Program-made: the position numbers and the translations under genes
In this document: piece after piece, positions 13,192-43,457 of the stretch
Layout of the letters: each line of letters starts with the position of its first letter
Position numbering within the stretch: position 1 is the first letter of the stretch
Notes under the pieces: model-generated
The model's input: only the letters and a program-made list of their open reading frames with translations
Database searches by the model: none
Told to the model about the DNA's origin: nothing
Assembly (NCBI RefSeq): GCF_007995085.1
Contig: NZ_VOQS01000005.1
Location: forward strand, 1,860,001-1,924,000
Reading direction: 5' to 3'
Length of the DNA stretch: 64,000 nucleotides
From: Paraburkholderia azotifigens
GTDB lineage: Bacteria > Pseudomonadota > Gammaproteobacteria > Burkholderiales > Burkholderiaceae

Positions 13192-14382
13192 ATGAAACAC
13201 GTTGTTCTTGCCGGCGCGGCCGGTCTGGCCGCCATGACGCCGGCACTCGCAAGCGCACAGAGCGCGGTCACGCTCTATGGCCTCGTCGATGCGGGCATCA
13301 CCTATACCAACAATCAGAAGGGCGCGAGCAACGTCCAGCAGACAAGCGGCAAGCTGAGCGGCAGCCGCTGGGGGCTGCGCGGTGTCGAAGATCTCGGCGA
13401 CGGACTGAATGCACTCTTCACGCTCGAAAGCGGCTTTCGACCCAACGACGGCACATCCGCGCAAGGCGGCCGCCTGTTCGGCCGGCAGGCGTTCGTCGGC
13501 GTGCAGAAGAAAGGCATCGGCACGCTCACGCTCGGCCGGCAATATGAGCCCGTGACCGATCTCGTCTCGCAGTATGCGGGCCCCGGGTTCTGGTCACCCT
13601 CGACCCATATCGGCGACAACGACAATCTGAACCAGACGTTCCGCGTGAACAACGCCGTCAAGTTTCGCAGCGACTCGATTGCAGGACTGACCGTCGACGG
13701 TCTCTATGCGTTCAGCAATCAGGCCAACAGCGGTAATGGCGCGGGCTTCAGCAACAATCGCGCGTGGGGCGTGGCCGCGAACTACGTGAACGGACCGTTC
13801 TCGATCGGCGGCGGTTACAACGTGTTGAATCATCCAAATGCGGCGTCAAACACGAGCGGCGCGATCGGCGGTACGTCGACGACATCCGGCGACGACTATA
13901 GCGGCGCGTTCTTCTATGGATTGAATGGCGGCGTCGTGCGGCAGCAGATTGCCGCCGCGGGCACGAACTACGCGATCGGCGCGGCGACGCTCGGCTTCGC
14001 ATGGAGCCACACGCAACTCGACTATAGCGACGGCTCGTCGCGCAAGTTCAACAACTACGATCTGAACGCACGCTATCTGTTCACGCCCGCTGTCACGCTG
14101 ATCGGCGTCTACACCTACACCGATGGACGCGCAACGAATCTGCCCGGCACGAACGGCGCGAATCTGAAGCCGCGCTGGCATCAGTTCACGCTGGGCGTCG
14201 ACTATGCATTGTCCAAGCGCACCGATGTGTATCTGTCGGCGGCTTATCAGCTTGCGGCGGGCGACGCTTCGACACGCGTCGGCAGCGGTTATCAGAAGAT
14301 CGCAGCAATCGCCGACGCAGGCACGGCATCATCGACCAACCGGCAAGTGGCCGTTTTCTCGGGCCTGCGCGTGAAGTTCTGA
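13192..14382 (+). CDS. Gram-negative trimeric porin (OmpC-like)
   Basis: This protein has 396 residues. It has a Sec signal (MKHVVLAGAAGLAAMTPALA, cleaved before QSAVTLYG) and the family opening SAVTLYGLVDAGITYTNN. Typical Burkholderia porin blocks follow: SRWGLRGVEDLGDGLNALF, GRLFGRQAFVGVQ and GTLTLGRQYEPV. It ends in the outer-membrane insertion signal ...FSGLRVKF with a terminal Phe. A 16-strand beta-barrel for passive uptake of small anionic solutes is expected. AAAAAGGGAG-like sequence precedes the ATG. It is the first of two porins flanking the lactonase remnant, and so may belong to the tricarboxylate-uptake region to its right; it also works as a general porin. Confidence 0.92.
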   Translation: MKHVVLAGAAGLAAMTPALASAQSAVTLYGLVDAGITYTNNQKGASNVQQTSGKLSGSRWGLRGVEDLGDGLNALFTLESGFRPNDGTSAQGGRLFGRQAFVGVQKKGIGTLTLGRQYEPVTDLVSQYAGPGFWSPSTHIGDNDNLNQTFRVNNAVKFRSDSIAGLTVDGLYAFSNQANSGNGAGFSNNRAWGVAANYVNGPFSIGGGYNVLNHPNAASNTSGAIGGTSTTSGDDYSGAFFYGLNGGVVRQQIAAAGTNYAIGAATLGFAWSHTQLDYSDGSSRKFNNYDLNARYLFTPAVTLIGVYTYTDGRATNLPGTNGANLKPRWHQFTLGVDYALSKRTDVYLSAAYQLAAGDASTRVGSGYQKIAAIADAGTASSTNRQVAVFSGLRVKF

Positions 14383-14404
14383 CGCAGCCCGACGATGGCG
14401 ATCG

Positions 14405-14878
14405 TCATTGCACGAAGTCGATGGCAACGGGAGTCGGCATGTTGGCCGACTCGCCCGTATCCGACAGCCTGCCGGATGCGGGGTCGATGGCGAACACATT
14501 CACTTTGCCGCTGTGCTGGTTGGCAACCAGCATCCACTTTCCCGAAGGATGAATCGCAAAACCCCACGGCTTTTCACCGCCCGACGACGTGCGCTGAATC
14601 AGCGAAAGCATGCCCGACTCGCCGTTCACCCGATAAACCACCAGTTCATTCTCCGCGCTGTTCTCGACATAAACGAAACGTCCGTCGCGGCTCACGGCAA
14701 TTTCCGCTCCGCTTTTCACGCCCGTGAATGCATTGCTGGTGACGGGCAATGTTTGCACGAGGCTCAGACGTCCCTGTGCTTGATCCCAGCGCAACACCAT
14801 CAGCTCCGCCGACAACTCCGTAAGGAGATAAACGAACTGGCCGCTCGCCCCGAACGCGAAGGCGCGAGGGGAACGATA
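14405..14878 (-). pseudogene. 5'-truncated beta-propeller lactonase remnant
   Basis: Only the last ~155 codons of a lactonase of the 6-phosphogluconolactonase-like (PF10282) type remain. The reading starts abruptly around PRAFAFGASGQFVYLLTEL, which matches the family block GPRHxAFHPxGxxAYVxNEL. It continues through blades with SRDGRFVYVENSAENELVVY and HPSGKWMLVANQHSGKVNVF to the stop at 14405. No start codon with a ribosome site is near the break. A full-length paralogue lies at 17736-18980 on the same strand, with a porin and an MFS gene between, so this is probably the leftover of a duplicated or older module. Confidence 0.75.
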
Positions 14879-14948
14879 GGCGAGGAAGGCGCGCGCGTCC
14901 CTGGATAAAAGTGATGTTTAGTGGGACTTTTGTGAGGTGATACGAAAC

Positions 14949-14976
14949 GCATGAAGCAGATCGACCTGCTTCATGC
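14949..14976 (-). terminator. Terminator-like hairpin after the second porin
   Basis: This is a perfect 11-bp inverted repeat, GCATGAAGCAG / CTGCTTCATGC, with loop ATCGAC. It lies 37 bp beyond the stop of the leftward porin. On the minus strand it is followed by GTTTCGT, so the U-tract is weak. Confidence 0.6.
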
Positions 14977-15012
14977 GTGGCGCCCATTGCGCGAAATGGA
15001 CGCTGCCCGATG

Positions 15013-16239
15013 TCAGAACTTGTGACGGATGCCGACGCGCAGCGATACCTGCTTGTCGTTCGTCGACGGTGTCAGGCCGGTGATTTGCGCCACCGCGCTT
15101 TGTCCGAGCGAGTCGGTTCCGCTCGTCTTTTCATAGACCGCGATGGTGTAGACGTCGGTACGCTTCGACAGGAAATAATCGACGCCTGCACTAAAGAGGT
15201 TGTAGTTCGCGCCGCCCTTGCCCCCAGCGCCGCCGTTGCGCGTGTAATCGTACGCAACGCCTGCGAGCAGCGCGGGCGTGAACTGATACTTCGCGTTGAT
15301 TTCCGCGTTGTTGAAAGCCGCCGTGCCTCGGTAGCGCAGCGGGTTCGGCCCCGAGGACGAACCCATATCCTCGAAGCGCGTATTCGAGTAGGCCAGATTC
15401 ACGTTGAGCGAACCAAGCGTCACGCCTGCTCCAACGCCCGCGATTTCAAGCCGGTTCGCCGATGCATATCCGGCGAACACCGGATTGCTTTCGGGACTTG
15501 TCGCGCTGCCGAAGCTGCCGAGGTTGTTCGTCGTCGCCGGGCCCGCATTAGGATTCGCGCCAAAGAACGATGTGTTCGGATTGCGGATGTTCAGGTAGCC
15601 CGCGCCGATCGAAAACGGGCCGTTTGCGTAGGCGGCGCCGGCGCCCCAGATCCAGTTGCTCGAGAACGATCCTGGTGTGCCGCCGAGATTCATCATCGCC
15701 TCGACCGTCAGGCCGCGGTAATTCGCGCTGCGGAACTTGATCGAGTTGTTGATGCGGCGCGAGTTCAGCGCGTTGTCGAGGTCGCCCGGATGCGAACTCA
15801 TGTAGCCGCCCCACTGCGGCGCGGCAAGAAACGGGCCGTACAGATCGACGACCGGATCGTACTGGCGGCCCAACGTCACGGTTCCAATGGGATTGCTGAG
15901 GCCGACATAGGCTTGCCGACCGAACAGCGCGCCGCCCTGGTTCATCACCCCGTTGTTGCTATAAAAGCCGCTTTCCAGCACGAAGATCGCCTTGAGACCG
16001 CCGCCCAGATCTTCGCTGCCGCGCAGGCCCCAGCGGCTCCCCTGCAAGCCCGCTGAGCCGCCTTCGATCATCGCAATCTGATGTCCGCCCGTGAGCCCCG
16101 TTGCAGTCTTTGCCGTCTGGACGTTGTTCGTGTAGTTCACGCCGCTGTCGATGATGCCGTATAGCGTGACATTGCTTTGCGCATACGCGGATACGATCGT
16201 TACGCTTAGTATGACTAATGGTATTGCCGACTTCTTCAT
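15013..16239 (-). CDS. Gram-negative porin of the lactonase/MFS locus
   Basis: This protein has 408 residues. The signal peptide is MKKSAIPLVILSVTIVSAYA, then QSNVTLYGIIDSGVNYTNN. Family blocks are SRWGLRGSEDLGGGLKAIF, GALFGRQAYVGLS and GTVTLGRQYDPVVDL, and it ends SLRVGIRHKF with the terminal Phe. It lies downstream of the MFS carrier and the Tat-exported lactonase on the same strand (gaps of 106 and 55 bp), which suggests a leftward unit lactonase-MFS-porin that handles uptake of one compound. A hairpin terminator follows it. Confidence 0.92.
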   Translation of the reverse strand: MKKSAIPLVILSVTIVSAYAQSNVTLYGIIDSGVNYTNNVQTAKTATGLTGGHQIAMIEGGSAGLQGSRWGLRGSEDLGGGLKAIFVLESGFYSNNGVMNQGGALFGRQAYVGLSNPIGTVTLGRQYDPVVDLYGPFLAAPQWGGYMSSHPGDLDNALNSRRINNSIKFRSANYRGLTVEAMMNLGGTPGSFSSNWIWGAGAAYANGPFSIGAGYLNIRNPNTSFFGANPNAGPATTNNLGSFGSATSPESNPVFAGYASANRLEIAGVGAGVTLGSLNVNLAYSNTRFEDMGSSSGPNPLRYRGTAAFNNAEINAKYQFTPALLAGVAYDYTRNGGAGGKGGANYNLFSAGVDYFLSKRTDVYTIAVYEKTSGTDSLGQSAVAQITGLTPSTNDKQVSLRVGIRHKF

Positions 16240-16345
16240 CGTAAAGATCTCCTCAAGAAAGTAGATGTTCTTTTGCGCCTGTGTTTGTGGCAGTGTTTAA
16301 CGCGCGTCCGGCAAGTCGCCAGACGTCTTCATGCGCGGCCAGGTT

Positions 16346-17680
16346 TTAGTGGCTTTGATTGGCGGCGGCGGCGTGTGCGTCGGCTGCACGCTGTTCGTTG
16401 ATGCGGATAAAGTACGTCATCAGGAACGACGCGACCAGCAATGCGGCGAGAAACAGCAGACCGGGCGTCGCGCTTTGCCCCGTTCCCTTGATATAGCCAA
16501 TCGCGAATGGTCCGACAAAGCCGCCCAGATTGCCGACGGAATTGATGACGGCAATCGACACAGCCGCCGTCGAGCGTGTAAGAAAGAGCGTCGGCAACGC
16601 CCAGAACGGCGACTTGAACGCGTACAGGCCAGCGAGACTCAGGCTGATCATCGTGATCGACACATACGGGTTGGTCGCGAGTCCCGCGCCGAGCAATGCG
16701 AGCGCTGCAACTGCGAGCGGAATCGCCGAATGCAAACGCCGCTCGCTGTGACGATCCGAACTGCGCGACCACGCCACCATCACGATCGTCGCGAACACAT
16801 ACGGAATCATCGCGATGAGACCGACCTGCGTGTGGCTCAGCGTCTTCGAAAAGCCCTTGATGATCTGCGGCATCCAGTAGCCGACGCCAAGACTGCCGCA
16901 CTGATACACGAAGTAGATGAACGACAGGTACAGCACTTTCGGATTCGCCATCACCTTGAACGCACCCAGATGTTTGGCATTCGGGTGGGCCTTCCGGTCG
17001 TTGGCCAGCTCGTTCAGCAGCCACTCGCGCTCTTCGGGCTTGAGCCACTTCGCATCGGCGGGCTTGTCGGTCAGATAGACGAAGCACAGAATGCCGCCGA
17101 TCAGCGCCGGCGCACCTTCCAGCACCAGCATCCAGCGCCAGCCGCTCCAGTCGAGCCAGTGGACGCTGTCCATGATCCACGTGCTCAACGGCGCGCCGAT
17201 GATGTACGACACGGGAATCGCCGCAGTGAAAAGCGCGACCGTCGTCGCGAGTTCCTTCGCGCGAAACCAGTAAGTCAGATAGACGATGATGCCCGGAAAG
17301 AAGCCCGCTTCCGCGACGCCCAGCAGAAAGCGCAGCACGTACAGTTGCGTCGCGTTCTGCGCGAACGCCGAGATGACGGAGACGATGCCCCACGTCACGA
17401 GAATGCGCGCAATCCACACACGCGCGCCGTACTTGTTGAGCATCACGTTGCTGGGCACTTCAAACAGGAAATACCCAATGAAGAAGATGCCCGACGCGAA
17501 ACCGAACGCTTCGCTGCTCAGCGCGAGATCGCGGTTCATCTGCAATGCGGCATAGCCGATGTTCGCGCGATCCAGATACGAAATGATGTAGAGAATGAAA
17601 ACGAATGGAATGATCCGCCAGGCGATCTTGCGGACGAGCGCGCGCTCGTCGATGGCCTGCGTGGCTGGCTTGGCTTGCAT
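16346..17680 (-). CDS. MFS transporter, anion:cation symporter (ACS) family
   Basis: This protein has 444 residues with 12 predicted membrane segments. The first block (KIAWRIIPFVFILYIISYLD, then RANIGYAALQMNRDL) and the motif GVAEAGFFPGIIVYLTYWF are hallmarks of the ACS family, which carries tartrate, phthalate, hydroxyphenylacetate and hexuronate-type organic anions. PEEREWL in the central loop is also typical. The ATG at 17680 is preceded by GGAGA; the frame extends four codons further to a GTG. It lies 55 bp downstream of the lactonase gene and is probably co-transcribed. It is thus a candidate inner-membrane carrier for the acid released by the lactonase, which is inference. Confidence 0.9.
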   Translation of the reverse strand: MQAKPATQAIDERALVRKIAWRIIPFVFILYIISYLDRANIGYAALQMNRDLALSSEAFGFASGIFFIGYFLFEVPSNVMLNKYGARVWIARILVTWGIVSVISAFAQNATQLYVLRFLLGVAEAGFFPGIIVYLTYWFRAKELATTVALFTAAIPVSYIIGAPLSTWIMDSVHWLDWSGWRWMLVLEGAPALIGGILCFVYLTDKPADAKWLKPEEREWLLNELANDRKAHPNAKHLGAFKVMANPKVLYLSFIYFVYQCGSLGVGYWMPQIIKGFSKTLSHTQVGLIAMIPYVFATIVMVAWSRSSDRHSERRLHSAIPLAVAALALLGAGLATNPYVSITMISLSLAGLYAFKSPFWALPTLFLTRSTAAVSIAVINSVGNLGGFVGPFAIGYIKGTGQSATPGLLFLAALLVASFLMTYFIRINEQRAADAHAAAANQSH

Positions 17681-17735
17681 GTGTGTCTCCACTGGCGGGT
17701 GCGCCCGCCAGGTTCCTTGAAATCCGTATTGCGGG

Positions 17736-18980
17736 TTACGCGTGATGTTGCGAGAACATCATGCAGACAGGGCTGCCCGACTGGGTGGAAAAGCCCGTCG
17801 GTTTGAGTTGTCCTGTCGTCGGGTTCACGGAGAATGCGACGATCGTGTCGCTGTCTTCGTTGAGCGCGTACATGAAGCGCCCGTCGGGCGTCGCCGTCAT
17901 GAAGCGCGGCGTGCGGCCCAGCGTCGGCTCGGCGTCGACGAAAGCGAGGTGGCCCGTCGCCTGGTCGATGCGAAACACCGCGATGCTGTCGAAACCGCGA
18001 TTCGATGCGTAGACGAAGCGCCCCGTGCGGTCCACTTCGATCTCCGATGCGCGGCTATTGCCCGTGAACGTATCGGGCAACGACGACACTATCTGCACGG
18101 GCGTCAACTCGCCGTTGCTCGCCGTATAGCGATACGTCGTCACGGTCGAGTCGAGTTCGTTGACGACATACGCATGCGTGCCCTTCGGATGAAACGCGAC
18201 GTGACGCGGCCCCGATGTCTCGCGCGATACGACGAACGCGGGCGCAGCGGGCGTCAGTTGCCCGTCCTTGAAACGGAAGGTGAAAACGCGGTCGAGTCCC
18301 TTGTCCGGCACGATGACGAATTCGCCCGTCGGGTCGAACGGATTGAAGTGCGGCTTGGCCTGCTTCTGTTCGACGCGATGCGGGCCGACCGGACCTTCGA
18401 GGCGCACCAGCTGCGTCAGCTCCTGAAGCGAGCCGTCTTCGGCGATGGGCAGCACAGCAAGGCTCGCGCCGATGTGGTTCGACACGACGACATGGCGGCC
18501 CGTCGGATCGATCGCGAGGTGCACGGGATTCTTGCCCTGCGTGCTTTGCCGATTCAGGAACGTGAGCTTGCCGGTTGCCTTGTCGACCTTGAAGGCGCTG
18601 ATGTCGCTGACGTCGCCATGCACGGTATAGAGATGCTCGCCGTTGCTGCTCAACGCGAGGAATGACGGATTGACGAGGTCTTTCACGAGTTGCACGAGTT
18701 CGAGCGCGCCCGTTTCCGTGTCGACCTGATAGACGCTGATGCCCTCGCCGTGGGCGTTCCGTTCGCGGGTGGTCCGCGATCCGACATAAGCAAACATGAG
18801 GTTCTTTCCTTTGAGATCTGTCTGGCGCAACGGCTGTTCCTCCGCGAAAACCGACCGTGCGGCGGGCCCGATGGCAGCCAGCACGCCGAGCGCCGCGGCG
18901 CCCTGAACGATGCGCCGCCGGGCTCCGTCGAGGGCCGCTTCGGCCGGCGAAACCCGCCTGTCATGGCCGGTTTTCTTCAC
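17736..18980 (-). CDS. Tat-exported beta-propeller lactonase (PF10282 type)
   Basis: This is a seven-bladed propeller of the 6-phosphogluconolactonase-like / carboxymuconate-cyclase family. Repeating blade cores include NLMFAYVGSRT, NPSFLALSSNGEHLYTV, NPVHLAIDPTGRHVVVSNH, NPFDPTGEFVIVPDKGLDRV, GPRHVAFHPKGTHAYVVNEL and TPRFMTATPDGRFMYALNE. The N-terminus carries GARRRIVQGAAALGVLAAIG...VFAEE, a twin-arginine export signal, so the enzyme likely acts in the periplasm. I chose the GTG at 18980 because CGGAG lies just upstream; an ATG at 18995 and a GTG at 19016 are in frame. Family members hydrolyse sugar-acid or carboxymuconate lactones; here a lactone of a tricarboxylic acid is plausible from the neighbouring aconitases. 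It is divergent to the AcnA-type gene with 76 bp between the starts. Confidence 0.82.
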   Translation of the reverse strand: MKKTGHDRRVSPAEAALDGARRRIVQGAAALGVLAAIGPAARSVFAEEQPLRQTDLKGKNLMFAYVGSRTTRERNAHGEGISVYQVDTETGALELVQLVKDLVNPSFLALSSNGEHLYTVHGDVSDISAFKVDKATGKLTFLNRQSTQGKNPVHLAIDPTGRHVVVSNHIGASLAVLPIAEDGSLQELTQLVRLEGPVGPHRVEQKQAKPHFNPFDPTGEFVIVPDKGLDRVFTFRFKDGQLTPAAPAFVVSRETSGPRHVAFHPKGTHAYVVNELDSTVTTYRYTASNGELTPVQIVSSLPDTFTGNSRASEIEVDRTGRFVYASNRGFDSIAVFRIDQATGHLAFVDAEPTLGRTPRFMTATPDGRFMYALNEDSDTIVAFSVNPTTGQLKPTGFSTQSGSPVCMMFSQHHA

Positions 18981-19009
18981 GTGATGTCTCCGCATTGTTG
19001 TATCTGGGG

Positions 19010-19047
19010 TTTGCACTAGATTGCATTTTTACCTGGTAAAGTGCAAA
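19010..19047. promoter_or_regulatory. Candidate operator between lactonase and aconitase genes
   Basis: In the short divergent gap there is a perfect 13-bp palindrome TTTACCTGGTAAA (19028-19040). It is nested near an inverted pair TTTGCAC (19010-19016) / GTGCAAA (19041-19047). Such a site between two divergent genes could let one regulator control both arms. The GntR-type gene two positions downstream is the natural candidate; this is inferred. Confidence 0.55.
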
Positions 19048-19056
19048 AATACAGTC

Positions 19057-21681
19057 ATGGAAAACACTTACTCCCCCACTGAAGCCCGCTTGAGCGTCGA
19101 CGGCATGTCGTATCGCTTCGTCGATCTGCCCGGGTTGTTCGGCGACAGGCTGCGTGCATTGCCCGTCGTGATGCGGCTGCTGCTCGAAAACGTCGTCCGC
19201 AACATGGAAGGCGAAGAGCGGCGGCAAGCCGTCGAAGCCACCCTCGCGTGGACGGCACGCGCGACCAGCGAAGCCGAGATCGCGTTCCAGCCCAACCGCG
19301 TGCTGATGCACGACACGACGAGCACGCCCGCACTGGTCGACATTGCGGGGATGCGCGACGCGCTCGCGGAAGCTGGCGCGGACCCGGCGTCGCTCAATCC
19401 TGTGCTGCCCGTCGATTCATCCGTCGATCATTCGCTGGCCGTCGAGTCCTTCGCGCAGAAGGACGCGGCGCCTGAGAATCTCGCGCTCGAATTGCGCCGC
19501 AACGCGGAGCGCTACCGTTTCCTGCGCTGGGCGTCGAAGGCGCTGAAGGGCGTGCGCATTCATCCGCCGGGCACCGGGATCATGCATACGATCAACCTGG
19601 AGCAACTGGCGACCGTCGTCACGACAGTCGAGCGCGACGGCGAGCAATGGGCCGTGCCCGATACGCTGATCGGCACCGACAGCCACACGCCGATGATCAA
19701 CGGCATCGGCGTGCTGGGCTGGGGCGTGGGCGGACTCGAAGCGCAGACGGTGATGTTCGGCATGCCCGTGATGCAGCGCATTCCCGATGTGATCGGCGTG
19801 CGGCTGACGGGCGCGATGCGGCCGGGCGTGCTCGCCACCGATCTCGCGCTGAAGGTGACACAGCGGCTGCGCGCCATCGGCGTGTCGGGCGAGTTCGTCG
19901 AGTACTTCGGTCCCGGTGTCGCGACGCTGAGCGCTGGCGACCGCGCCGTCGTCGCGAACATGGCGCCGGAATACGGCGCATCGACGGGCTTTTTCCCCGT
20001 CGATCAGCACACGCTCGACTATCTGCGCGCGACGTTCCGTTCCGAGGCGTCCATCAGGCTCGTCGAAGCGTTCACGCGGCACGCGGGCCTCTGGTTCGAT
20101 CCGCAAGCCGAGCCGCGCTTCACGCGCACGATCGAGATCGATCTCGGCAGCGTCGGCATGCATATCGCCGGGCCGCGCCGTCCGCAGGATCTGCTCGATT
20201 ACTCGCAAACGGCGGCGACGCTCGCCAGGCTTGCCTTCGAGCCTGTGCAACGTCATCCGACGATGCCGAAGCATCCCGTCGCGATTGCCGCGATCACGAG
20301 TTGCACGAATACATCCGATCCCGCGTTGCTGATGGCCGCTGGTCTGCTTGCCCGTAAAGCACGCGCGTTGGGCCTGAAGGTGCCGTCGTGGGTCAAGACG
20401 TCGCTTGGACCTGGCTCGCCCGCCGCCGCCGCGTATCTCGAACGCGCGAAGCTGATTGATGACTTGTCGGCTGTCGGCTTCGATATCGTCGGCTACGGCT
20501 GCACGACCTGCATCGGCAACTCGGGACCGTTGACGTCGCCGATCCGCGAAGCGCTCGCGCAGAAAAGCATCTATCCCGTCGCGATGCTGTCGGGCAACCG
20601 CAATTTCCCCGGCCGCATTCATCCCGATCTCGATCTCGGCTTCATCATGTCGCCGCCGCTCGTCATTGCCTTCGCGCTTGCGGGCGACGCCGAACGCGAC
20701 CTGAGCGTCGAGCCGATCCAGCAGACAGCTGATGGCAAGCCCGTCTATCTGCGCGATCTCTGGCCGACGCGCGAAGAAGTCTCCGACGTCGTCAAAGCAG
20801 CCGCCGATCCGCGCGACTATCCGCGCGCCTTCGCGCTCGCGAGCCGCAATCCGGCGTGGCACGACCTCGATGCGCCCGACAGCGCGCGCTTCCCGTGGAA
20901 TCCGGCATCGACGGCGTTGCGCCGCCCGCCGTTCGCGTCGGCGACACAGGGCAGCCAGCTCGGCCGCTACAGCGCGTATCCGTTGCTCGTGCTCGGCGAC
21001 GACGTGACCACCGATCACATCTCGCCCGCCAGCGCGATTCCGAAGAACAGCTACGTCGCCGATTTCCTCGTGGCGCGCGGCGACGATCGCGACGACCTCA
21101 ACGTGTTCGCCTCGCGGCGCGGCAACTGGGAAGTGATGGTGCGCGCCGCCTTCTACAACCGGACGCTCGTCAACCGGCTGCGCCCCGGCACGCCCGTCGC
21201 GCACACGCTGCACGTGCCGAGCGGCGACGTGCTGCCGATCTTCGAAGCCGCGCAGCGCTATCAGCAGAACGGCGACGCGGTCGTGCTTGTCGCGGGCGAG
21301 CGCTACGGCACGGGTTCGTCGCGCGACTGGGCAGCCAAGGGTCAACGGCTGCTCGGCATTCGCGCGGTGCTGGCCGTCAGTTTCGAGCGCATCCATCGGT
21401 CGAATCTGATCGGCATGGGCATACTGCCGCTGCGCCTGGCTCCGGGCGTCCATCCCGACACACTCGATCTCCAGCCGGGTGATAAGCTCGAAGTCGACGC
21501 TGCGGGTGATACGCTGTCGCCTCGTTGCAGGGTGCCCGTGCGCGTGGTTCGCGCGAACGGCAGCGTGCAGCCCATCGAGGCGACGGCGGCCGTCGAAACG
21601 CAACTCGAATGCACGCTGCTGCGTTCGGGCGGCGTGATCCCGCTGATATTGCAGAAAAGTTTGCTGACGCAGGAGGCTTGA
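19057..21681 (+). CDS. Aconitase A-type hydratase
   Basis: This protein has 874 residues from the ATG at 19057 (MENTYSPTEARLSVDG). It has the full AcnA/IRP-type order: catalytic domains 1-3, linker and C-terminal swivel. [4Fe-4S] ligands are visible as Cys416 (ITSCTNTSDP) and Cys482/Cys485 (GYGCTTCIGNSGPL). Substrate motifs are GTDSHTPMINGIGVLGWGVGG, LGDDVTTDHISPA, GERYGTGSSRDWAAKG and the Arg in SFERIHRSNLIGMGILP. It should interconvert citrate-like hydroxy-tricarboxylates via cis-aconitate. It heads a rightward run with a GntR regulator, a binding protein and a LysR regulator rather than TCA genes, and a second, unlike aconitase-family enzyme is nearby. That suggests a dedicated catabolic role such as use of an unusual tricarboxylate. 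Confidence 0.88.
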   Translation: MENTYSPTEARLSVDGMSYRFVDLPGLFGDRLRALPVVMRLLLENVVRNMEGEERRQAVEATLAWTARATSEAEIAFQPNRVLMHDTTSTPALVDIAGMRDALAEAGADPASLNPVLPVDSSVDHSLAVESFAQKDAAPENLALELRRNAERYRFLRWASKALKGVRIHPPGTGIMHTINLEQLATVVTTVERDGEQWAVPDTLIGTDSHTPMINGIGVLGWGVGGLEAQTVMFGMPVMQRIPDVIGVRLTGAMRPGVLATDLALKVTQRLRAIGVSGEFVEYFGPGVATLSAGDRAVVANMAPEYGASTGFFPVDQHTLDYLRATFRSEASIRLVEAFTRHAGLWFDPQAEPRFTRTIEIDLGSVGMHIAGPRRPQDLLDYSQTAATLARLAFEPVQRHPTMPKHPVAIAAITSCTNTSDPALLMAAGLLARKARALGLKVPSWVKTSLGPGSPAAAAYLERAKLIDDLSAVGFDIVGYGCTTCIGNSGPLTSPIREALAQKSIYPVAMLSGNRNFPGRIHPDLDLGFIMSPPLVIAFALAGDAERDLSVEPIQQTADGKPVYLRDLWPTREEVSDVVKAAADPRDYPRAFALASRNPAWHDLDAPDSARFPWNPASTALRRPPFASATQGSQLGRYSAYPLLVLGDDVTTDHISPASAIPKNSYVADFLVARGDDRDDLNVFASRRGNWEVMVRAAFYNRTLVNRLRPGTPVAHTLHVPSGDVLPIFEAAQRYQQNGDAVVLVAGERYGTGSSRDWAAKGQRLLGIRAVLAVSFERIHRSNLIGMGILPLRLAPGVHPDTLDLQPGDKLEVDAAGDTLSPRCRVPVRVVRANGSVQPIEATAAVETQLECTLLRSGGVIPLILQKSLLTQEA

Positions 21682-21735
21682 GACCGGCCGCCGCTGCGTT
21701 CAAGCGATAAGCCGAAGGCAGAAGGCACGACTCAC

Positions 21736-22629: not shown

Positions 22630-22667
22630 GACCGCGACCTCACAGCGCGGCCGCAACGAGAGCCTCC

Positions 22668-23402
22668 ATGACCATCGATCCATCCGTTGTCACTGCGTTC
22701 ACACCGACGGGCAAATTGCGCGCGTCGATCAATCTCGGCAATCCGATTCTCGCTAACAAACACCCCGAGACGGGCGAGCCGTTCGGTGTATCGGTCGATC
22801 TCGCGCGTGCGTTCGCCGCGAAGCTCGGTGTCGAACTGGAACTGGTCGTGTTCGACGCGGCGGGCAAGTCGGTGCAGGCTGTCAGTGAGGAGCGCGCAGA
22901 CTTCGGCTTCTTCGCCGTCGATCCGCTGCGGGGCGAGACGATCGCATTCACGGCGCCGTATGTGTTGATCGAAGGCTTCTATCTCGTTCGCGACGACTCG
23001 CCCGTGCGGACCAATGCGGATGTCGATCAGCCGCATAATCGCGTCGCCGTCGGCAAAGGCAGCGCGTACGACCTGTTTCTGACGCGCGAACTGAAAGCTG
23101 CGCAGATCGTGCGTGCGCCGACTTCGCCTGCCGTCGTGGAGACCTTCGTCGAGCAGAAGCTCGAAGTCGCGGCGGGCGTGAAGCAGCAGCTCGAAGCCGA
23201 TGCCGCCAGGACCACGGGGCTTCGGCTGCTCGACGAACGGTTCATGGTCATCCAGCAGGCGATGGGCACGCCGAAGAGCCGTGGCCCGGCGGCTGCGGCC
23301 GCACTCCACGCGTTTGTCGAAGAGATGAAGGCGTCAGGCTTCGTTGCCGACGCGCTGGCGCGTCATGGGATCGCGGGAGCGTCGGTGGCGCCGAAGGCTT
23401 AG
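22668..23402 (+). CDS. Solute-binding-like protein without signal peptide
   Basis: This protein has 244 residues. It has the fold pattern of family 3 extracellular solute-binding proteins: GKLRASINLGNPIL, GEPFGVSVDLARAFAAKLGV, ERADFGFFAVDPLRGETIAF, TAPYVLIEGFYLV and VAVGKGSAYDLFLTRELKAA. It starts straight into the first domain (MTIDPSVVTAFTPTGKLRAS) with no hydrophobic leader and no lipobox. No ABC permease or ATPase is adjacent. It sits between a GntR and a LysR gene. It may act in the cytoplasm as a ligand sensor or be moonlighting as an enzyme of the cyclohexadienyl-dehydratase-like type; neither is shown. Confidence 0.75.
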   Translation: MTIDPSVVTAFTPTGKLRASINLGNPILANKHPETGEPFGVSVDLARAFAAKLGVELELVVFDAAGKSVQAVSEERADFGFFAVDPLRGETIAFTAPYVLIEGFYLVRDDSPVRTNADVDQPHNRVAVGKGSAYDLFLTRELKAAQIVRAPTSPAVVETFVEQKLEVAAGVKQQLEADAARTTGLRLLDERFMVIQQAMGTPKSRGPAAAAALHAFVEEMKASGFVADALARHGIAGASVAPKA

Positions 23403-23454
23403 CGCTGTATCACCGCTACACGACCCGTTACGGCAACCCGTTCTCTCCCGCAGC

Positions 23455-24348
23455 ATGCGCATCGATCCGTACAGTCTGGAGCTGTTCATTTCCGTCGTGC
23501 AGGAAGGCTCCATCGCGCGGGCGGCGAGCCGCAATCACATCGCGCCATCCGCATTGAGCCGGCGCCTCGCCGACCTCGAAGCGGCCATGGGACTTCCGTT
23601 GCTGATCCGCTCGCCATCCGGCGTCGAGTTGACGGAAGCAGGCCGTCACGCGTTCGCGCGCGCGGTTTCCGTTCATGACCAGTTGCAGTCGCTGGCGCGC
23701 GAGGTTCAGTCGCTCAGCGGCCAGGTCGCGGGCGTCGTGCGTCTGTATGCGAACGCGTCGGCGATCGTCGGTTTCCTGCCCGAGCGCCTGAAGGCTTTCC
23801 AGGCTCGTTATCCGCTCGTGCAGATTGCGTTGACAGAACAGATCAGCGACGAGGTGATCCGCGCCTGCGTGGACGATCGCGCGGACGTGGGCATCTCCGC
23901 GAGCAGCGAGATACCGGGCGGCCTGGACTCATGGCACTTTGCCGACGATCCGCTGATGGTCGTCGTGCCGCCCGGCCACGAACTCGCCGCACTTGAAGCG
24001 CCGTCGTTCAACGACGTCATCCGCTTCCCGCTCGTCGCACTGCAGGCGGGCGGATCGCTCGATCAGATCCTGAAGGAACGCGCCGACGCCGCCCGCACGC
24101 CGCTCGATCTGTCCGTGACGGTCAACAGTTTCGATGCGCAATGCCGGATGGTCGAAGCAGGCCTTGGCATCGGCATCGTGCCCACCAGCGCGGCGTCCGC
24201 GTTCGCGGGATCGCATGGTTTCGTGCGCCGGCCGCTCGACGAGCCATGGGCGCGCGCCCGCGTCCTGCGGGTTCACGCGCTCCGCAAATCGTCGCGTCTG
24301 AAGGCCGTGCAGGCGCTGATCGAATCGCTTGCCATGCACGAGGGTTAA
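23455..24348 (+). CDS. LysR-family transcriptional regulator
   Basis: This protein has 297 residues from the ATG at 23455 (MRIDPYSLELFISVVQEGSI). The N-terminal winged helix includes ARAASRNHIAPSALSRRLADLEAAMG. The effector domain starts at about residue 90 (GVVRLYANASAIVGFLPERL) and contains VAGLGIGIVP-like text (VEAGLGIGIVPTSAA). It lies 52 bp after the leaderless binding protein and 94 bp before the fused aconitase-like gene, in the same direction. It probably regulates one of these genes in response to the substrate or an intermediate of the pathway. Confidence 0.9.
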   Translation: MRIDPYSLELFISVVQEGSIARAASRNHIAPSALSRRLADLEAAMGLPLLIRSPSGVELTEAGRHAFARAVSVHDQLQSLAREVQSLSGQVAGVVRLYANASAIVGFLPERLKAFQARYPLVQIALTEQISDEVIRACVDDRADVGISASSEIPGGLDSWHFADDPLMVVVPPGHELAALEAPSFNDVIRFPLVALQAGGSLDQILKERADAARTPLDLSVTVNSFDAQCRMVEAGLGIGIVPTSAASAFAGSHGFVRRPLDEPWARARVLRVHALRKSSRLKAVQALIESLAMHEG

Positions 24349-24442
24349 CGAGGACATCGCGATTTGCGATGCCCCCTTTGCCAATCGAGCACTTCGTTGC
24401 CGCCGCCGTCGCCGTCTAGATTTCCGTTGAAGGAGAAATCAG

Positions 24443-26401
24443 ATGGCGACACTGGAATTGACGGGCCGGATCCTGTTTCTTTGCGACGATCCCGAACAGG
24501 TTGAACGCCAGCTCGGCGGCGTCGATCTGACGGAGGCAACGGCGGGCACGCTGCGCGACGACGTCTCGACGGACGAGATCACGCCGATGAGCGTGCTCAC
24601 TCGCTTCGACGAGCGGCTCGGGCGCTTTCCGTATCTCGGCTTTCGCACGCGCGGCCGCAATCCCATCGCCCCCGACGCGATCCGCGCGGGCGGCTTCTGC
24701 GTGACGGTGGCGGGCAACCGTTATGGCAAGGGTTCGTCGCGCGAACACAGCCCGCTTGCGGAATATCACGCGGGCATCCGGCTCGTGATCGCGAAGAGCT
24801 TCGAGCGGATCTACCGGCAGAATGCCGATAATCTGGGTCTCTTCACGTCGACGGACTTCGGGTTGATCGAACGCATCCGGCGCGGCGAGCCGATCGATAT
24901 CGACGAACTCGTTGCGTCGCGCGACAGTCTCTCCGCTTCGATCCTGCGCAGCGGCGGTCTGCTGCGCTATGGCGCGCGGCACATGCGAAAAATCGAAACG
25001 GCAAAAAGCCCCGCCGATCACGCGCCGCGCACGCTTGCGCAAAAAATTCTGGAACGTCACGCGCTGCGCACGGAAGGCACGGGCGCATCGCTCGCACCAG
25101 GCGCCGGCGTTTTCGTGCGCGCCGACTGGCGCTTCATCCACGAGTACTACACGGGCATGGCGACGCACATGCTGCACGCGACGTTCGGCAAGCCGCTGTC
25201 GCTGCATCAGCCCGACAGTATTCTCGCTTTCGAAGACCATCTGTCGTATTCGCACAAGAGCGAACTGCACATCCGGAACGGCTTGCTGCCCGACGTGCGC
25301 GAATTGTCGGCGGCACACCGGCAGTTCGCGCAAGACTATGCATTGACGAACCACGGCTATCTGTCCGAAACGGGCAGCGGCAACGACGAAGGCTCGGAAG
25401 GCATCTCGCACGCGATGATGGCGGAGCGCTACGCGTTGCCGGGCCAGTTGATCGTCGGCACGGATTCGCACACGCCGCATAGCGGCGCGCTCGGATGCGT
25501 GGCGTTCGGCGTCGGCACCACGGACATGGCGAACGCGTTCGTCACGGGCGCAGTGCGGATGACCGTGCCGCAATCACTGCGCGTCGATTTCAACGGATCG
25601 ATTCCACCCGGCGTGACGGCAAAGGATCTCGTCCTGCATCTGCTCGCCGAGCCCGCGATTCGTGCCGGCGCGGGCGTGGGCAAGGTGTTCGAGTTCGCGG
25701 GCTCAGCCATGCCGCTACTGACGACTGACGAGCGCACGACCCTCACGAACATGACGGCGGAACTCGGCGGCTTCACGGGCATCGTCGCGCCCGATGCGCA
25801 GACCGTGCGCTTCCTCAAGGAACGCCGCGGCATCGACTTCGTCATCGAACCGTGGATGCGCAGCGACGCGGGCGCGACCTATGCCGACGTGATCGAGATC
25901 GACTGCACGCGCATCACGCCGATGCTCGCCGCGCCCGGCGATCCCGGCAACGGCGTCGCGCTGCGCGATCTGGCGGAGCGTCCGCACGTCGATATCGCGT
26001 ATGGCGGCTCGTGCACGGCGGGCAAGCGCGAAGACTTCGACCACTATCACGAAGTGCTGGCCTGGGCGGCAGCGCGCGGCATGCGTGTGCCTGCGGATGT
26101 GAAGCTGTATCTGCAGTTCGGCACGTCCGACGTCAGGGACTACTGCGCGGAGCGCGGCTACCTCGATGCATTCGAGCGGGTCGGCGCGATCCTGCTGCAA
26201 CCGTCGTGCGGCGCATGCGCGAACTGCGGACCGGGTTCGTCGACGGATGCGGGCGACGTGACGATCAGCGCAATCAACCGCAATTTCCCGGGCCGCTCGG
26301 GTCCAGGCCAGGTGTGGCTTGCGAGCCCGCCGACCGTCGCGGCGAGCGCGCTCGCTGGCCATATTGCTTCGTTCGCTGAATTGCAGGCGCAGTACGCGTG
26401 A
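24443..26401 (+). CDS. Domain-swapped aconitase/isopropylmalate dehydratase fusion
   Basis: This protein has 652 residues; AAGGAG precedes the ATG at 24443. The small swivel (LeuD-like) domain is at the N-terminus: DDVSTDEITPMSVL and GNRYGKGSSREHSPLAEYHA, residues about 1-175. The large catalytic (LeuC-like) domain follows from about 195: GTDSHTPHSGALGCVAFGVG. Cluster ligands are Cys524 (GGSCTAGKRED) plus Cys589, Cys592 and Cys595 in PSCGACANCGPG. This order is the reverse of AcnA and resembles AcnB, but without its HEAT-like domain. The active-site motifs are intact, so it should be a hydro-lyase on a malate- or citrate-like acid. Its pairing with an AcnA-type enzyme and lactonase suggests a second dehydration/hydration step on a modified tricarboxylate. 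The substrate is unknown. Confidence 0.85.
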   Translation: MATLELTGRILFLCDDPEQVERQLGGVDLTEATAGTLRDDVSTDEITPMSVLTRFDERLGRFPYLGFRTRGRNPIAPDAIRAGGFCVTVAGNRYGKGSSREHSPLAEYHAGIRLVIAKSFERIYRQNADNLGLFTSTDFGLIERIRRGEPIDIDELVASRDSLSASILRSGGLLRYGARHMRKIETAKSPADHAPRTLAQKILERHALRTEGTGASLAPGAGVFVRADWRFIHEYYTGMATHMLHATFGKPLSLHQPDSILAFEDHLSYSHKSELHIRNGLLPDVRELSAAHRQFAQDYALTNHGYLSETGSGNDEGSEGISHAMMAERYALPGQLIVGTDSHTPHSGALGCVAFGVGTTDMANAFVTGAVRMTVPQSLRVDFNGSIPPGVTAKDLVLHLLAEPAIRAGAGVGKVFEFAGSAMPLLTTDERTTLTNMTAELGGFTGIVAPDAQTVRFLKERRGIDFVIEPWMRSDAGATYADVIEIDCTRITPMLAAPGDPGNGVALRDLAERPHVDIAYGGSCTAGKREDFDHYHEVLAWAAARGMRVPADVKLYLQFGTSDVRDYCAERGYLDAFERVGAILLQPSCGACANCGPGSSTDAGDVTISAINRNFPGRSGPGQVWLASPPTVAASALAGHIASFAELQAQYA

Positions 26402-26481
26402 AGCACCGGTTGACTGAATCCCCTGGACCGGCCGCTTCGTGAAGTTGTTGAACATCCAAAACTACGAGACTGGAGACACAC

Positions 26482-27924
26482 ATGACCACCCTGGAGGGCG
26501 CCTCTGATCTACGCGCCGCCGATCATCCCGCGCGCGCCGACACATCCCAGGCGGCCGGAACGGGCGAGATTTCCGCGCGACTCGACCGGCTTCCCGCGAC
26601 CCGCGCAGTCTGGAAGCTGATTCTGCTGCTGAGCCTCGGATTCTTCTTCGAACTCTACGATCTGCTCTACACCGGCTACGTCGCGCCAGGCCTCGTCAAG
26701 AGCGGCATTCTCACGCCGACCACCACGGGCCTGTTCGGCACGTCGGGCGTCGCGAGCTTCATTGCCGCGCTCTTCTGCGGGCTGTTCATCGGCACTGTCG
26801 CGTGCGGATTTCTCGCCGACCGTTTCGGCCGCCGCGCGATCTTCACGTGGTCGCTGCTCTGGTACGTCGCGGCCAACACGGTGATGGCGTTCCAGGACAC
26901 CGCGAGCGGTCTGAACCTGTGGCGCTTCATCTCGGGAATGGGCATCGGCGTCGAGCTGATCACGATCGGCACATATATGTCCGAACTCGCACCGAAGCAT
27001 CTGCGCGGCAGGGCCTTTGCGATCTGCCAGACGATCGGCTTTTCGGCCGTGCCTGTCGTCGCGTTTCTTTCTTATCTGCTGGTGCCCGCCGCGCCGTTCG
27101 GCGTGGACGGCTGGCGCTGGGTCGTGCTGCTCGGCGGCATCAGCGCGCTCTTCGTCTGGTACTTCCGGCGCAATCTGCCCGAAAGCCCGCGCTGGCTCGC
27201 GAGCAAAGGACGCATCCGCGAAGCGAATGAAGTGCTCGCGCGTCTCGAAGCGCAGGTCGAGCGGCAATACGGGCAGCCGCTGCCCGAACCGGGCACGCCC
27301 GATCCCGCTCCGCGCAAGGCCGGTTTCGCGGATATGTGGAAGCCGCCGTATCGCAAGCGCACGCTGATGCTGATCGCCTTTCACATTTTCCAGACGATCG
27401 GCTTCTACGGCTTCGCGAACTGGGTGCCGACCTTGCTGGTCAAGCAAGGCATCACGGTGACGTCGAGCCTGCTGTACACGACGGTCATCGGTCTCGCTGC
27501 GCCGCTCGGGCCGTTGCTCGGCTACTGGATCGCCGACCGCTTCGAGCGCAAGCATGTGATCGTCTGCATGGCGGCGCTCAATATCGTCAGCGGCCTGCTG
27601 TTCAGCCAGGCGGCATCGGCCGTCGCGATCGTGATGCTGGGCGTGCTGCTGACGCTGGCGGGCAATATCATCTCGTTCACCTATCACGCGTATCAGCAGG
27701 AGCTGTATCCGACGGCGATACGCGCACGCGCAGTGGGCTTCGTCTATTCGTGGAGCCGGTTGTCGGCGGTGTTCAGCTCGTTCGTGATCGCGTTCACGCT
27801 GAAGGAATTCGGCGTCACGGGCGTGTTCGTTTTCATTGCAGGAGCGATGGCGCTCGTCATTGTCGCGATCGGGCTGATGGGGCCGCGCACGCTCGGCAAG
27901 TCGCTCGAAAGCATTTCGCACTAA
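26482..27924 (+). CDS. MFS transporter, sugar-porter/aromatic-acid type
   Basis: This protein has 480 residues, with a soluble ~45-residue N-terminal arm and then 12 membrane segments. The loop 2-3 motif is GFLADRFGRRAI, the central loop has PESPRWLASKGRIREANEVL, and the second half carries GYWIADRFERKHV. These place it in the sugar porter/AAHS-like part of the MFS, whose members carry sugars, aromatic acids, niacin or shikimate by proton symport. The gap of 80 bp from the fused aconitase gene and the GGAGA ribosome site make co-expression likely. It is the second carrier of the region, the other being of ACS type; different substrates or a lactone/acid pair could explain two. Confidence 0.9.
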   Translation: MTTLEGASDLRAADHPARADTSQAAGTGEISARLDRLPATRAVWKLILLLSLGFFFELYDLLYTGYVAPGLVKSGILTPTTTGLFGTSGVASFIAALFCGLFIGTVACGFLADRFGRRAIFTWSLLWYVAANTVMAFQDTASGLNLWRFISGMGIGVELITIGTYMSELAPKHLRGRAFAICQTIGFSAVPVVAFLSYLLVPAAPFGVDGWRWVVLLGGISALFVWYFRRNLPESPRWLASKGRIREANEVLARLEAQVERQYGQPLPEPGTPDPAPRKAGFADMWKPPYRKRTLMLIAFHIFQTIGFYGFANWVPTLLVKQGITVTSSLLYTTVIGLAAPLGPLLGYWIADRFERKHVIVCMAALNIVSGLLFSQAASAVAIVMLGVLLTLAGNIISFTYHAYQQELYPTAIRARAVGFVYSWSRLSAVFSSFVIAFTLKEFGVTGVFVFIAGAMALVIVAIGLMGPRTLGKSLESISH

Positions 27925-27940
27925 GGGGTTCGATGTGGGC

Positions 27941-27964
27941 CAGCGGCCGTTCGACCGGCCGCTG
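27941..27964. terminator. GC-rich hairpin between convergent genes
   Basis: CAGCGGCC / GGCCGCTG are separated by 8 nt between the stop of the MFS gene and the stop of the leftward LysR gene. There is no U-tract. It may slow polymerase from both sides. Confidence 0.45.
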
Positions 27965-27967
27965 CCT

Positions 27968-28873
27968 TCAGGTGCCGCATGCGTGGATCAGAAACTGCTG
28001 TAACGCCGTCGCCGGGCCGCTGAGCTGCGCGCCTTTCTGCCAGATCATGCCCGCATCCATCTGCGGCACGGCGTCGAGAACGGGCCGCGCTTCGATACGA
28101 TTGCCTTCGAGCGACCACGGACGAAACACCATATCCGACAGCACGGTCACACCGAAGCCGTGCGCCACGAGCCCGCGGAGCGCTTCCATCGAACTGGTGC
28201 GAAACGCGATATTCGGCACCAGCCCCTTCTTTTTCCAGTAACGCAGCGTCGACTGTTCGCCTTCGTCCACGGTGATCAGGATGTACGGATGCGCCGCGAT
28301 GTCCTTGAGCGACGGCGCGTCGACTTGCGCCAGAGGATGCGTCGGCGCGACCCACAATTGGCGCCGCGAACGGATCAGCACCTGGCTGCTGAACCGGCTC
28401 AACTTCTCGATGTTCGACAGCAGCACCACGCCGATATCAACGTCGCCATCGAGCACGGCGCGCTCGATATCCACGCGCTCCATGTCGCGCAGATCGAACT
28501 CGATGAACGGATACGTCGCGCGAAAACGCGCCAGCAGTTCGGGCAGGAAGTAACCCAGCACCGTGTACGACGCGGCGATGCGCACAGTGCCGCGCATGTC
28601 GTGCGAGCGGAACGGCGGCTTGTGGACGGCGTCGCGCGCGGCGTCCAGCACGCGCCGCGCGTGGTTGTAGAAGTCCTGGCCGTCGGGCGTCAGCGTCACG
28701 CCCTGCGGCAGCCGCTCGAAGAGCCGTGTGCCGAGCCCGTTCTCCAGCGCGAGCACGGCATTGGTGATCGCCGATTGAGACACGTGTTCGTTCGCGGCCG
28801 CCATCGAAAACTGGCCCGTTTGCGCCGCCGCCGCGAAGTAGCGCAACTGCCGGAGTGTGAGATCGAACGCCAT
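27968..28873 (-). CDS. LysR-family regulator, divergent to ferredoxin oxidoreductase
   Basis: This protein has 301 residues. Helix-turn-helix is FDLTLRQLRYFAAAAQTGQF SMAAANEHVSQSAITNAVLA within residues 3-45. The effector domain contains VRIAASYTVLGYFLPELLAR and the acceptance segment GLVAHGFGVTVLSDM. It is transcribed away from the fused indolepyruvate oxidoreductase with a 101-bp shared gap, the usual arrangement of a LysR protein with its target. It converges with the MFS gene of the tricarboxylate region, so control of that gene is less likely. Confidence 0.9.
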   Translation of the reverse strand: MAFDLTLRQLRYFAAAAQTGQFSMAAANEHVSQSAITNAVLALENGLGTRLFERLPQGVTLTPDGQDFYNHARRVLDAARDAVHKPPFRSHDMRGTVRIAASYTVLGYFLPELLARFRATYPFIEFDLRDMERVDIERAVLDGDVDIGVVLLSNIEKLSRFSSQVLIRSRRQLWVAPTHPLAQVDAPSLKDIAAHPYILITVDEGEQSTLRYWKKKGLVPNIAFRTSSMEALRGLVAHGFGVTVLSDMVFRPWSLEGNRIEARPVLDAVPQMDAGMIWQKGAQLSGPATALQQFLIHACGT

Positions 28874-28892
28874 CTGATTTTCGAATACCAGA

Positions 28893-28922
28893 ATTGTCTA
28901 TTTGTGATTTTACGATAGCAAT
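28893..28922. promoter_or_regulatory. Candidate LysR binding site
   Basis: In the divergent gap CTAT (28898-28901) and ATAG (28915-28918) flank 13 nt, inside near-symmetric arms ATTGTCTA and TAGCAAT. This dyad fits the size of a LysR recognition site. A -10-like TATACT follows at about 28933. Confidence 0.45.
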
Positions 28923-28974
28923 TCGGCTTTCTATACTCGGCGAAAAATCACGATTCCCCGGAGACAGCCCTGCC

Positions 28975-40733: not shown

Positions 40734-40744
40734 CGGAGTCCGCC

Positions 40745-41602: not shown

Positions 41603-41625
41603 CTTTTCCGATCGGGGAGCACGTC

Positions 41626-42525: not shown

Positions 42526-42551
42526 CACCCACAACATCACAGGTAACGCAC

Positions 42552-43409: not shown

Positions 43410-43457
43410 AGCCCGAATGAAGCCCGATTTCTTACGACATCGATCAAGGAAACGATA

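Follow-up and report, generated by a model that had tools for sequence, protein, structure and literature searches.

Two neighbouring gene modules with unlike aconitase-family enzymes, usually found apart, in Paraburkholderia azotifigens

A 64-kb stretch of the Paraburkholderia azotifigens genome (the window, lying on a 2.67-Mb contig of the 9.7-Mb genome) carries a run of genes for a lactonase-family protein, two unlike aconitase-family enzymes, transporters and regulators. Our analysis revealed that these genes form two modules, usually apart, and not a single system. In module A, a genuine unit, a porin, an ACS-type carrier of the major facilitator superfamily (MFS) and a PF10282 beta-propeller lactonase lie on one strand, divergent to an AcnA-clade aconitase, a GntR-FCD regulator and a leaderless solute-binding protein (SBP). 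Module B comprises a LysR regulator (LysR1), a fused aconitase-superfamily hydro-lyase (the fusion) and a second MFS carrier (MFS2), extended by a second LysR regulator (LysR2) and an indolepyruvate-type 2-oxoacid ferredoxin oxidoreductase (IOR). We give roughly an even chance to the reading that these are separable catabolic modules set side by side, A for a citrate-type hydroxy-tricarboxylate or its lactone and B for an alkylmalate- or homologue-type acid. Open-reading-frame and Pfam/NCBIfam checks confirmed the place and family of every gene named in the first-pass annotation of this DNA; its placing of the fusion and MFS2 in the same system as the lactonase and AcnA was not supported by the comparisons below.

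Two modules rather than one system

Families were named by Pfam/NCBIfam profile scans, the Pfam scan taking in 19 window proteins. The AcnA-clade survey covered 398 genomes of the family and yielded 56 places in 53 genomes, the window included; the 55 others were searched with the window proteins. Because nine of these 55 stretches are shorter than 19 kb (contig ends or the piece taken), their neighbour counts are lower bounds. A smaller sample of 200 family genomes served for the lactonase, fusion and SBP searches, and the fusion survey provided 80 stretches, 19 of them shorter than 20 kb.

The fusion was seen in none of the 55 other AcnA-clade stretches, where two 29-31% matches proved to be other LeuC-like proteins. 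Among the ten other lactonase-bearing genomes of the 200-genome sample, seven had no fusion at E 1e-100 and three had it on another contig. A lactonase-AcnA pair was found in 2 of the 80 fusion stretches, as module A in L056 and as a sister operon in L085. In the plasmid collection, 61 records gave a match, none covering 80% of the stretch. The stretches that were read showed the whole of module A in P. phymatum STM815 (24 kb) and module A from the porin to GntR in P. sabiae, both without module B, and the SBP with module B in P. largidicola and P. caribensis. The plasmid records, together with the counts of 0/55, 2/80 and 7/10, weaken the idea of a single A+B system. Across the boundary between the modules, the genes once proposed as one system are thus largely kept without each other, while the lactonase-AcnA link holds.

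Full independence of A and B was weakened as well. L056, a 21-kb contig of a Proteobacteria metagenome-assembled genome, carries lactonase, AcnA, GntR, SBP, LysR1 and fusion in the window order at 55-75% identity, and shows no IOR within its 21 kb. In P. caribensis, the worn 3' ends of AcnA (window 21406-21697, 79%) and GntR (from 22434) precede the SBP, LysR1, fusion, MFS2, LysR2 and IOR genes, which indicates that the modules were contiguous in its ancestor. With one lineage joined and the other once so, full independence would be overstated, and the joining is no accident peculiar to the window strain. The expected number of chance joins was below 0.1 for either sample, by a rough estimate that ignores relatedness.

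The features of the two modules are as follows.

15013..16239, minus strand: module A porin, trimeric-porin family (PF13609), at least 50% identity in 14 of the 55 AcnA-clade stretches
16346..17692, minus strand: module A MFS carrier of the ACS type (TIGR00893/HpaX-like, under the cut-off), at least 50% identity in 27 of 55
17736..19016, minus strand: module A PF10282 beta-propeller lactonase (391 bits) with a twin-arginine translocation (Tat)-like leader, in 35 of 55 stretches
19021..19046, no strand given: module A operator-like palindrome TTGCATTTTTACCTGGTAAAGTGCAA, in the divergent lactonase/AcnA promoter
19057..21681, plus strand: module A AcnA-clade aconitase (TIGR01341, 983.2 bits)
21736..22629, plus strand: module A GntR-FCD regulator (PF00392 and PF07729), at least 50% identity in 46 of 55
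22668..23402, plus strand: module A leaderless SBP_bac_3 protein (PF00497), in 45 of the 55 AcnA-clade stretches
23455..24348, plus strand: module B LysR1 (PF00126 and PF03466), with a match in 51 of the 80 fusion stretches, many of them weak
24443..26401, plus strand: module B fused hydro-lyase of the aconitase superfamily, swivel-first, with a HacB/LeuD-like part ahead of a HacA/LeuC-like part
26482..27924, plus strand: MFS2 of module B, resembling aromatic acid:H+ symporters (TIGR00895 at 195.8 bits, under its cut-off)
27968..28873, minus strand: module B extension, LysR2, present wherever a fusion stretch has IOR (12 of 12)
28975..32565, plus strand: module B extension, fused IOR (PF01558, PF02775 and PF20169)

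The AcnA start most likely lies at ATG 19057, moved from TTG 19021, because that TTG falls within the conserved palindrome. LysR1 most likely starts at ATG 23455, since DNA conservation with several relatives begins there; the open reading frame itself opens at TTG 23344. The unit had been drawn to end at 28873, which keeps LysR2 inside, although the conserved LysR2-IOR pair runs on to 32565.

The conserved operon pair of module A

Module A partners recur across the 55 other AcnA-clade stretches (GntR in 46, SBP in 45, lactonase in 35, MFS in 27 and porin in 14), the GntR and SBP counts coming from tblastn searches of the stretches; in L221 the SBP lies on the far side of the locus. A lactonase of at least 67% identity occurs in 11 of the 200 family genomes, the genome under study included, and in all 11 a same-clade AcnA adjoins and diverges from it. 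The divergent promoter holds TTGCATTT-N10-AAGTGCAA, 26 bp at 19021-19046, which is conserved in the alignment of lactonase/AcnA intergenic regions. A looser rule, TTGCA-(14 to 18)-TGCAA upstream of AcnA, was matched in 53 of 59 AcnA-clade loci, loci without lactonase among them, and failed in six (L134, L141, L238, L249, L254 and L255). At no more than one mismatch, the pattern occurs at one place in the 9.7-Mb genome; a palindrome common to both modules was rejected on this ground, there being no module B copy. The conserved operon pair and palindrome bear out the first-pass view that lactonase, AcnA clade, GntR-FCD, MFS and SBP belong together, and the GntR-FCD protein is the candidate to bind the palindrome.

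The module A aconitase scores above the cut-off of the AcnA model (TIGR01341, 983.2 against 945 bits) and well below that of the AcnD 2-methylisocitrate dehydratase model (TIGR02333, 733.7 against 1419.85). In alignment with solved aconitases it keeps the cluster cysteines and the DSH, NRNF.GR and GSSR motifs, which the fusion also keeps and which include the residues that we take to be catalytic in both enzymes. In a 25-row tree, 19 module A-type AcnAs formed one clade with 100/100 support on a long stem, and E. coli AcnA joined a copy on contig C3 of the genome under study. The enzymes of the sister operon joined another AcnA-family copy of this genome, on C5 (L004/L216), itself beside a PrpF gene; this grouping is tentative, because the tree program warned of long branches.

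The sister operon was found in four loci (L085, L178, L179 and L229), where a GntR gene diverges from genes for an AcnD-like aconitase, a lactonase and PrpF; the FCD and PrpF families were named by Pfam/NCBIfam in L085. The L085 PrpF exceeds its cut-off (572 against 440.55 bits), and the L085 aconitase reaches 1219.9 bits, below the AcnD cut-off of 1419.85. L178 and L179 also carry NMT1-type and leaderless binding proteins, and an MFS of 24-25% similarity lies beside the sister operon in L085, L178 and L179. A lactonase search of 369 genomes of the class with an L085 query gave a match in the genome under study only. In one genome (L229, G680:C3:29000-48700), module A adjoins the PrpF-bearing sister operon.

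The lactonase clearly belongs to its Pfam family (391 bits against a gathering score of 21.7) and falls under the 6-phosphogluconolactonase cut-off (NF008258, 162.7 against 370). Its nearest solved relatives are annotated as 6-phospho- or gluconolactonases, PpgL (6igb) among them, and a histidine found in the three displayed solved relatives is absent from all 11 aligned lactonases. A motif rule for the leader, RR followed by a hydrophobic stretch, was scored on 39 lactonases of AcnA-clade loci. By this rule, 32 of them have a Tat-like leader; two more (L133 and L240) fail the rule, yet show a visible RR run, and five show no leader. The P. sabiae record places the lactonase start after the leader. 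Five further stretches (L180-L184) hold lactonase homologues with a sister-type GntR (63-82%) and no aconitase, a third operon type that has MFS or TctC genes close by.

No leader was seen by eye in any of ten aligned SBP orthologues, three of them with an open frame that extends further upstream. The SBP model, with a predicted local distance difference test score (pLDDT) of 86, has an amino-acid binding-protein fold, and the nearest folds, which reflect the general binding-protein fold only, are ancestral and natural cyclohexadienyl dehydratases and amino-acid SBPs. The Burkholderia line has probably lost a leader that homologues with 46-50% identity, from four genomes some 2 Mb in size (L202-L205), appear to retain, clearly so in three. 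In P. largidicola, an alpha/beta hydrolase gene (L143:9989-10975) lies between SBP and LysR1; the window has none there.

Module B and the flanks

The closest named relatives of the fusion are from Paraburkholderia. Structure comparison upheld its earlier description as domain-swapped: the swivel domain comes first, followed by domains 1-3, as in AcnB minus the HEAT domain. The best fold match of its core is the large subunit of homoaconitase, and its closest solved large subunit by sequence is that of isopropylmalate/citramalate isomerase. It remains under the cut-offs of LeuC (TIGR00170, 158.2 against 560.25 bits), of LEUD_arch for the swivel part (TIGR02087, 64.7 against 108.95), of the homoaconitate hydratase family (TIGR01343, 263.8 against 385.7) and of AcnB (TIGR00117, 86.8 against 1287.2); in the fold comparison, the model covers AcnB from residue 160 on. 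We looked in the fusion for a motif separating homoaconitase from isopropylmalate isomerase specificity and found none.

An MFS2 match of any strength occurs in 21 of the 80 fusion stretches. The LysR2-IOR pair (27968-32565) accompanies the fusion in 12 of 80, in several gene orders and often in the Burkholderia group. Elsewhere, a CoA-transferase of family III lies near the fusion in 15 of 80 stretches and an HMGL-like lyase in 11, while TctC is recurrent; one representative of each of the CoA-transferase and HMGL clusters was named by Pfam, and the neighbour counts for TctC, CoA-transferase, HMGL and RraA rest on gene picking and are lower bounds. The adjoining CoA-transferase and lyase genes (e.g. 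in L044, L058, L061, L070, L071, L081, L083, L106 and L114) suggest an acyl-CoA cleavage variant of module B. Five Iso_dh proteins are encoded in the genome, none in the window; two lie beside LeuC- and LeuD-like matches (G000:C3:1498291-1501396 and G000:C3:2272972-2276066).

Several other elements flank the modules.

13192..14382, plus strand: first porin (Porin_4, PF13609), with only weak homologues (31-34%) near a few other AcnA loci and not a constant partner of either module in the 55 AcnA and 80 fusion stretches
14868-14935: a 64-68-bp non-coding element left of module A with GTCCC...GGGAC arms, single copy in the genome
32835-33674, minus strand: a frame with only a partial FAD-binding match
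32898-32958, minus strand: within that frame, a Betaproteobacteria toxic small RNA (Rfam RF02278)
39651-44825: an NMT1-type binding protein and permease, with a luciferase-like monooxygenase after them, probably an operon of its own for uptake and oxidation
62398-62570, minus strand: Bcj14 small RNA of Burkholderia (Rfam RF02836)

The 64-68-bp element recurs to the left of SBP in P. largidicola (L143:8884-8951) and P. caribensis (L144:7207-7270), and it could be the trace of an old recombination or insertion boundary.

Candidate substrates and related systems

In the reading that we favour, a citrate-type acid or its lactone would enter via the module A porin, the exported lactonase would open the ring in the periplasm, and the free acid would be imported by the ACS-type MFS carrier. 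The AcnA-clade hydro-lyase would then shift the hydroxyl, leading the carbon into the tricarboxylic acid (TCA) cycle, and the GntR-FCD protein would sense the acid and let go of the palindrome, giving induction. Module B would take up a different hydroxy acid of the alkylmalate or homologue type, the fused homoaconitase/isopropylmalate-isomerase-like enzyme would isomerise it, and a LeuB-type enzyme encoded elsewhere would dehydrogenate the product to a 2-oxo acid for the neighbouring IOR. Because the lactonase clade is paired with two kinds of aconitase-family enzyme, its substrate is predicted to be of the citrate type, and this pairing is the best sequence evidence for it. The lactone of a citrate-type acid put forward by the first-pass annotation is therefore a reasonable rather than a proven substrate, given both the lactonase/AcnA and the lactonase/AcnD-like/PrpF operons.

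Several observations weigh against this reading, the two joined lineages among them. First, no lactonase was seen in 20 of the 55 AcnA-clade stretches, and the five lactonases with no visible leader (L129, L134, L234, L238 and L248, of 39) imply that ring opening in the periplasm is not universal. Second, of another 12 stretches with a lactonase homologue (L178-L189), only 2 carry an aconitase from these clades and 7 a sister-type GntR: five (L180-L184) have the GntR without aconitase and five (L185-L189, with 33-36% lactonases) have neither. In these stretches the regulator is thus the steadier partner, and a lactonase bound to aconitase alone was rejected. Third, the SBP is common, with a match at E 1e-60 in 113 of the 200 family genomes, and no aconitase appears in many of the contexts inspected, which exclude L193-L195 and L197-L199 where no SBP was picked. 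For module B, IOR was not seen in 68 of the 80 fusion stretches, 19 of which are the short ones noted above, and no dehydrogenase for the module was found among the window proteins scanned.

It is possible, if somewhat doubtful, that module B is instead a C5 unit for citraconate or (R)-citramalate, in which hydration of citraconate by the fusion would give a product that is then split into acetyl-CoA and pyruvate. The CoA-transferase III and HMGL-like neighbours in other fusion loci (15 and 11 of 80) and the isopropylmalate/citramalate isomerase as closest solved large subunit would fit this route; the window module B has neither a CoA-transferase nor an HMGL gene, the Burkholderia group often has IOR instead, and the fusion is under both the LeuC and LEUD_arch cut-offs.

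Trans-aconitate assimilation by module A, with the SBP-fold protein as aconitate isomerase, an inducible AcnA using its product and the lactonase as an accessory, is unlikely. The SBP is kept in the operon in 45 of 55 stretches with no leader seen, and SBP-fold enzymes exist, cyclohexadienyl dehydratase being among its nearest folds; the aconitate isomerase of Pseudomonas WU-0701 is reportedly SBP-like. PrpF, the family of the aconitate isomerases TarA and TbrA according to the accessible part of PMC11495376, is present in the sister operon. However, the frequency of the SBP in contexts without this AcnA weakens it as a specific marker of aconitate use, and the idea that PrpF replaces it in the sister operon was dropped, as L178 and L179 carry both. 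The lactonase would also be left without a clear role.

A low probability likewise attaches to the ordinary explanation that the lactonase is a periplasmic gluconolactonase-like enzyme acting on sugar lactones, with AcnA a spare aconitase sharing its promoter by chance. The annotations of its best solved relatives, such as PpgL, and the L180-L184 homologues that accompany GntR without an aconitase agree with it, and ACS-type MFS carriers often carry sugar acids. Against it stand the co-occurrence of lactonase and AcnA in 35 of 55 stretches, another operon type that again pairs the lactonase clade with an aconitase, this one of a different subfamily, the missing histidine and the score under the 6-phosphogluconolactonase cut-off.

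Finally, a single homocitrate-lactone pathway (lactonase to homocitrate, AcnA to homoaconitate, fusion to homoisocitrate, a LeuB/Icd-type enzyme to 2-oxoadipate and IOR to glutaryl-CoA) is doubtful, indeed rather improbable: fungal lysine synthesis needs two aconitase-family enzymes from homocitrate to homoisocitrate, and homocitric acid was isolated in that work in its lactone form (PMC3556520), the fusion core is closest in fold to the homoaconitase large subunit, IOR recurs beside the fusion, the modules are joined in L056 and once were in the P. caribensis line, and five Iso_dh proteins are encoded, but the fusion was seen in none of the 55 other AcnA stretches and, at E 1e-100, was not seen in 7 of 10 other lactonase genomes, the scanned window proteins include no homoisocitrate dehydrogenase, the fusion is under the TIGR01343 cut-off and L056 has no IOR in its 21 kb.

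Among the titles and abstract openings listed for the lactone, trans-aconitate, C5-acid and ybhHIJ themes, in lists partly shortened and including few subscription papers, none describes a pathway with this gene set. The tarRAB system for trans-aconitate in Bacillus velezensis comprises a PrpF-type isomerase, an MFS importer and a LysR-type regulator (excerpts of PMC11495376). Like module A, it joins an MFS importer and a regulator to an enzyme feeding the TCA cycle, and its isomerase family recurs in the sister operon; unlike it, module A shows no PrpF, its regulator is of the GntR-FCD type, and it carries an AcnA of its own together with a lactonase. Pfam found no PrpF among the 19 window proteins, and PrpF was near 1 of the 55 AcnA loci, within the neighbouring sister operon (L229). 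The aconitate isomerase of Pseudomonas WU-0701 is mentioned, with no family given, in the available parts of PMC13188880, PMC8871043 and PMC7470443. Two other systems, as far as the accessible portions of the sources describe them, are different: the 127-aa 2-hydroxyparaconate lactonase of Pseudomonas (PMC9875883) and the itaconate cluster (PMC12290011).

The E. coli pgl-ybhD-ybhH-ybhI-ybhJ genes are alike in kind, with a lactonase, a PrpF-family isomerase, a putative tricarboxylate transporter, a putative hydratase and a regulator, and differ in that Pgl is annotated as 6-phosphogluconolactonase and YbhD is LysR-type. The YbhH structure matches the L085 PrpF and YbhE matches the lactonase; only these E. 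coli parts came up as homologues. In the part of PMC9068703 available, ybhD, ybhH and ybhI were studied, the function of ybhHIJ is unsettled and L-malate is suggested. The AcnD-PrpF pair of the 2-methylcitrate cycle has a counterpart in the sister operon, with its AcnD-like enzyme and, in L085, an above-cut-off PrpF, whereas module A has an AcnA far below the AcnD cut-off, no PrpF and an added lactonase. The fungal route from homocitrate to homoisocitrate is similar in using two aconitase-family enzymes per conversion and in that homocitrate forms a lactone; it is biosynthetic and fungal according to the excerpt (PMC3556520), whereas here the context is catabolic and the two genes are mostly apart. 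The fusion resembles AcnB in its swivel-first order, and the large subunits of isopropylmalate isomerase and homoaconitase in its core fold; unlike these enzymes it has no HEAT domain, is one chain instead of two and is under the family cut-offs. PpgL, named periplasmic, is a PF10282-type propeller relative of the window lactonase, which differs in being paired with aconitase-family genes and in lacking the motif histidine.

The joined locus looks built to take up and degrade citrate-like acids of plant or fungal origin, ring forms included. A lactonase clade is linked here to aconitase-family enzymes in two operon types, with a candidate operator, and because the clade is tied to aconitases and the candidate operator is conserved, the substrate can be sought directly. 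The locus also provides a parallel for E. coli pgl-ybhD-ybhHIJ, whose hydratase and isomerase remain 'putative' in the record. If the substrate were the lactone of homocitrate, hydroxycitrate or isocitrate, the modules would show how soil and nodule bacteria use acids released by plants and fungi; if it were homocitrate lactone, the division of dehydratase and hydratase roles found in fungal lysine synthesis would be used to grow on an acid from plants, fungi or nodules.

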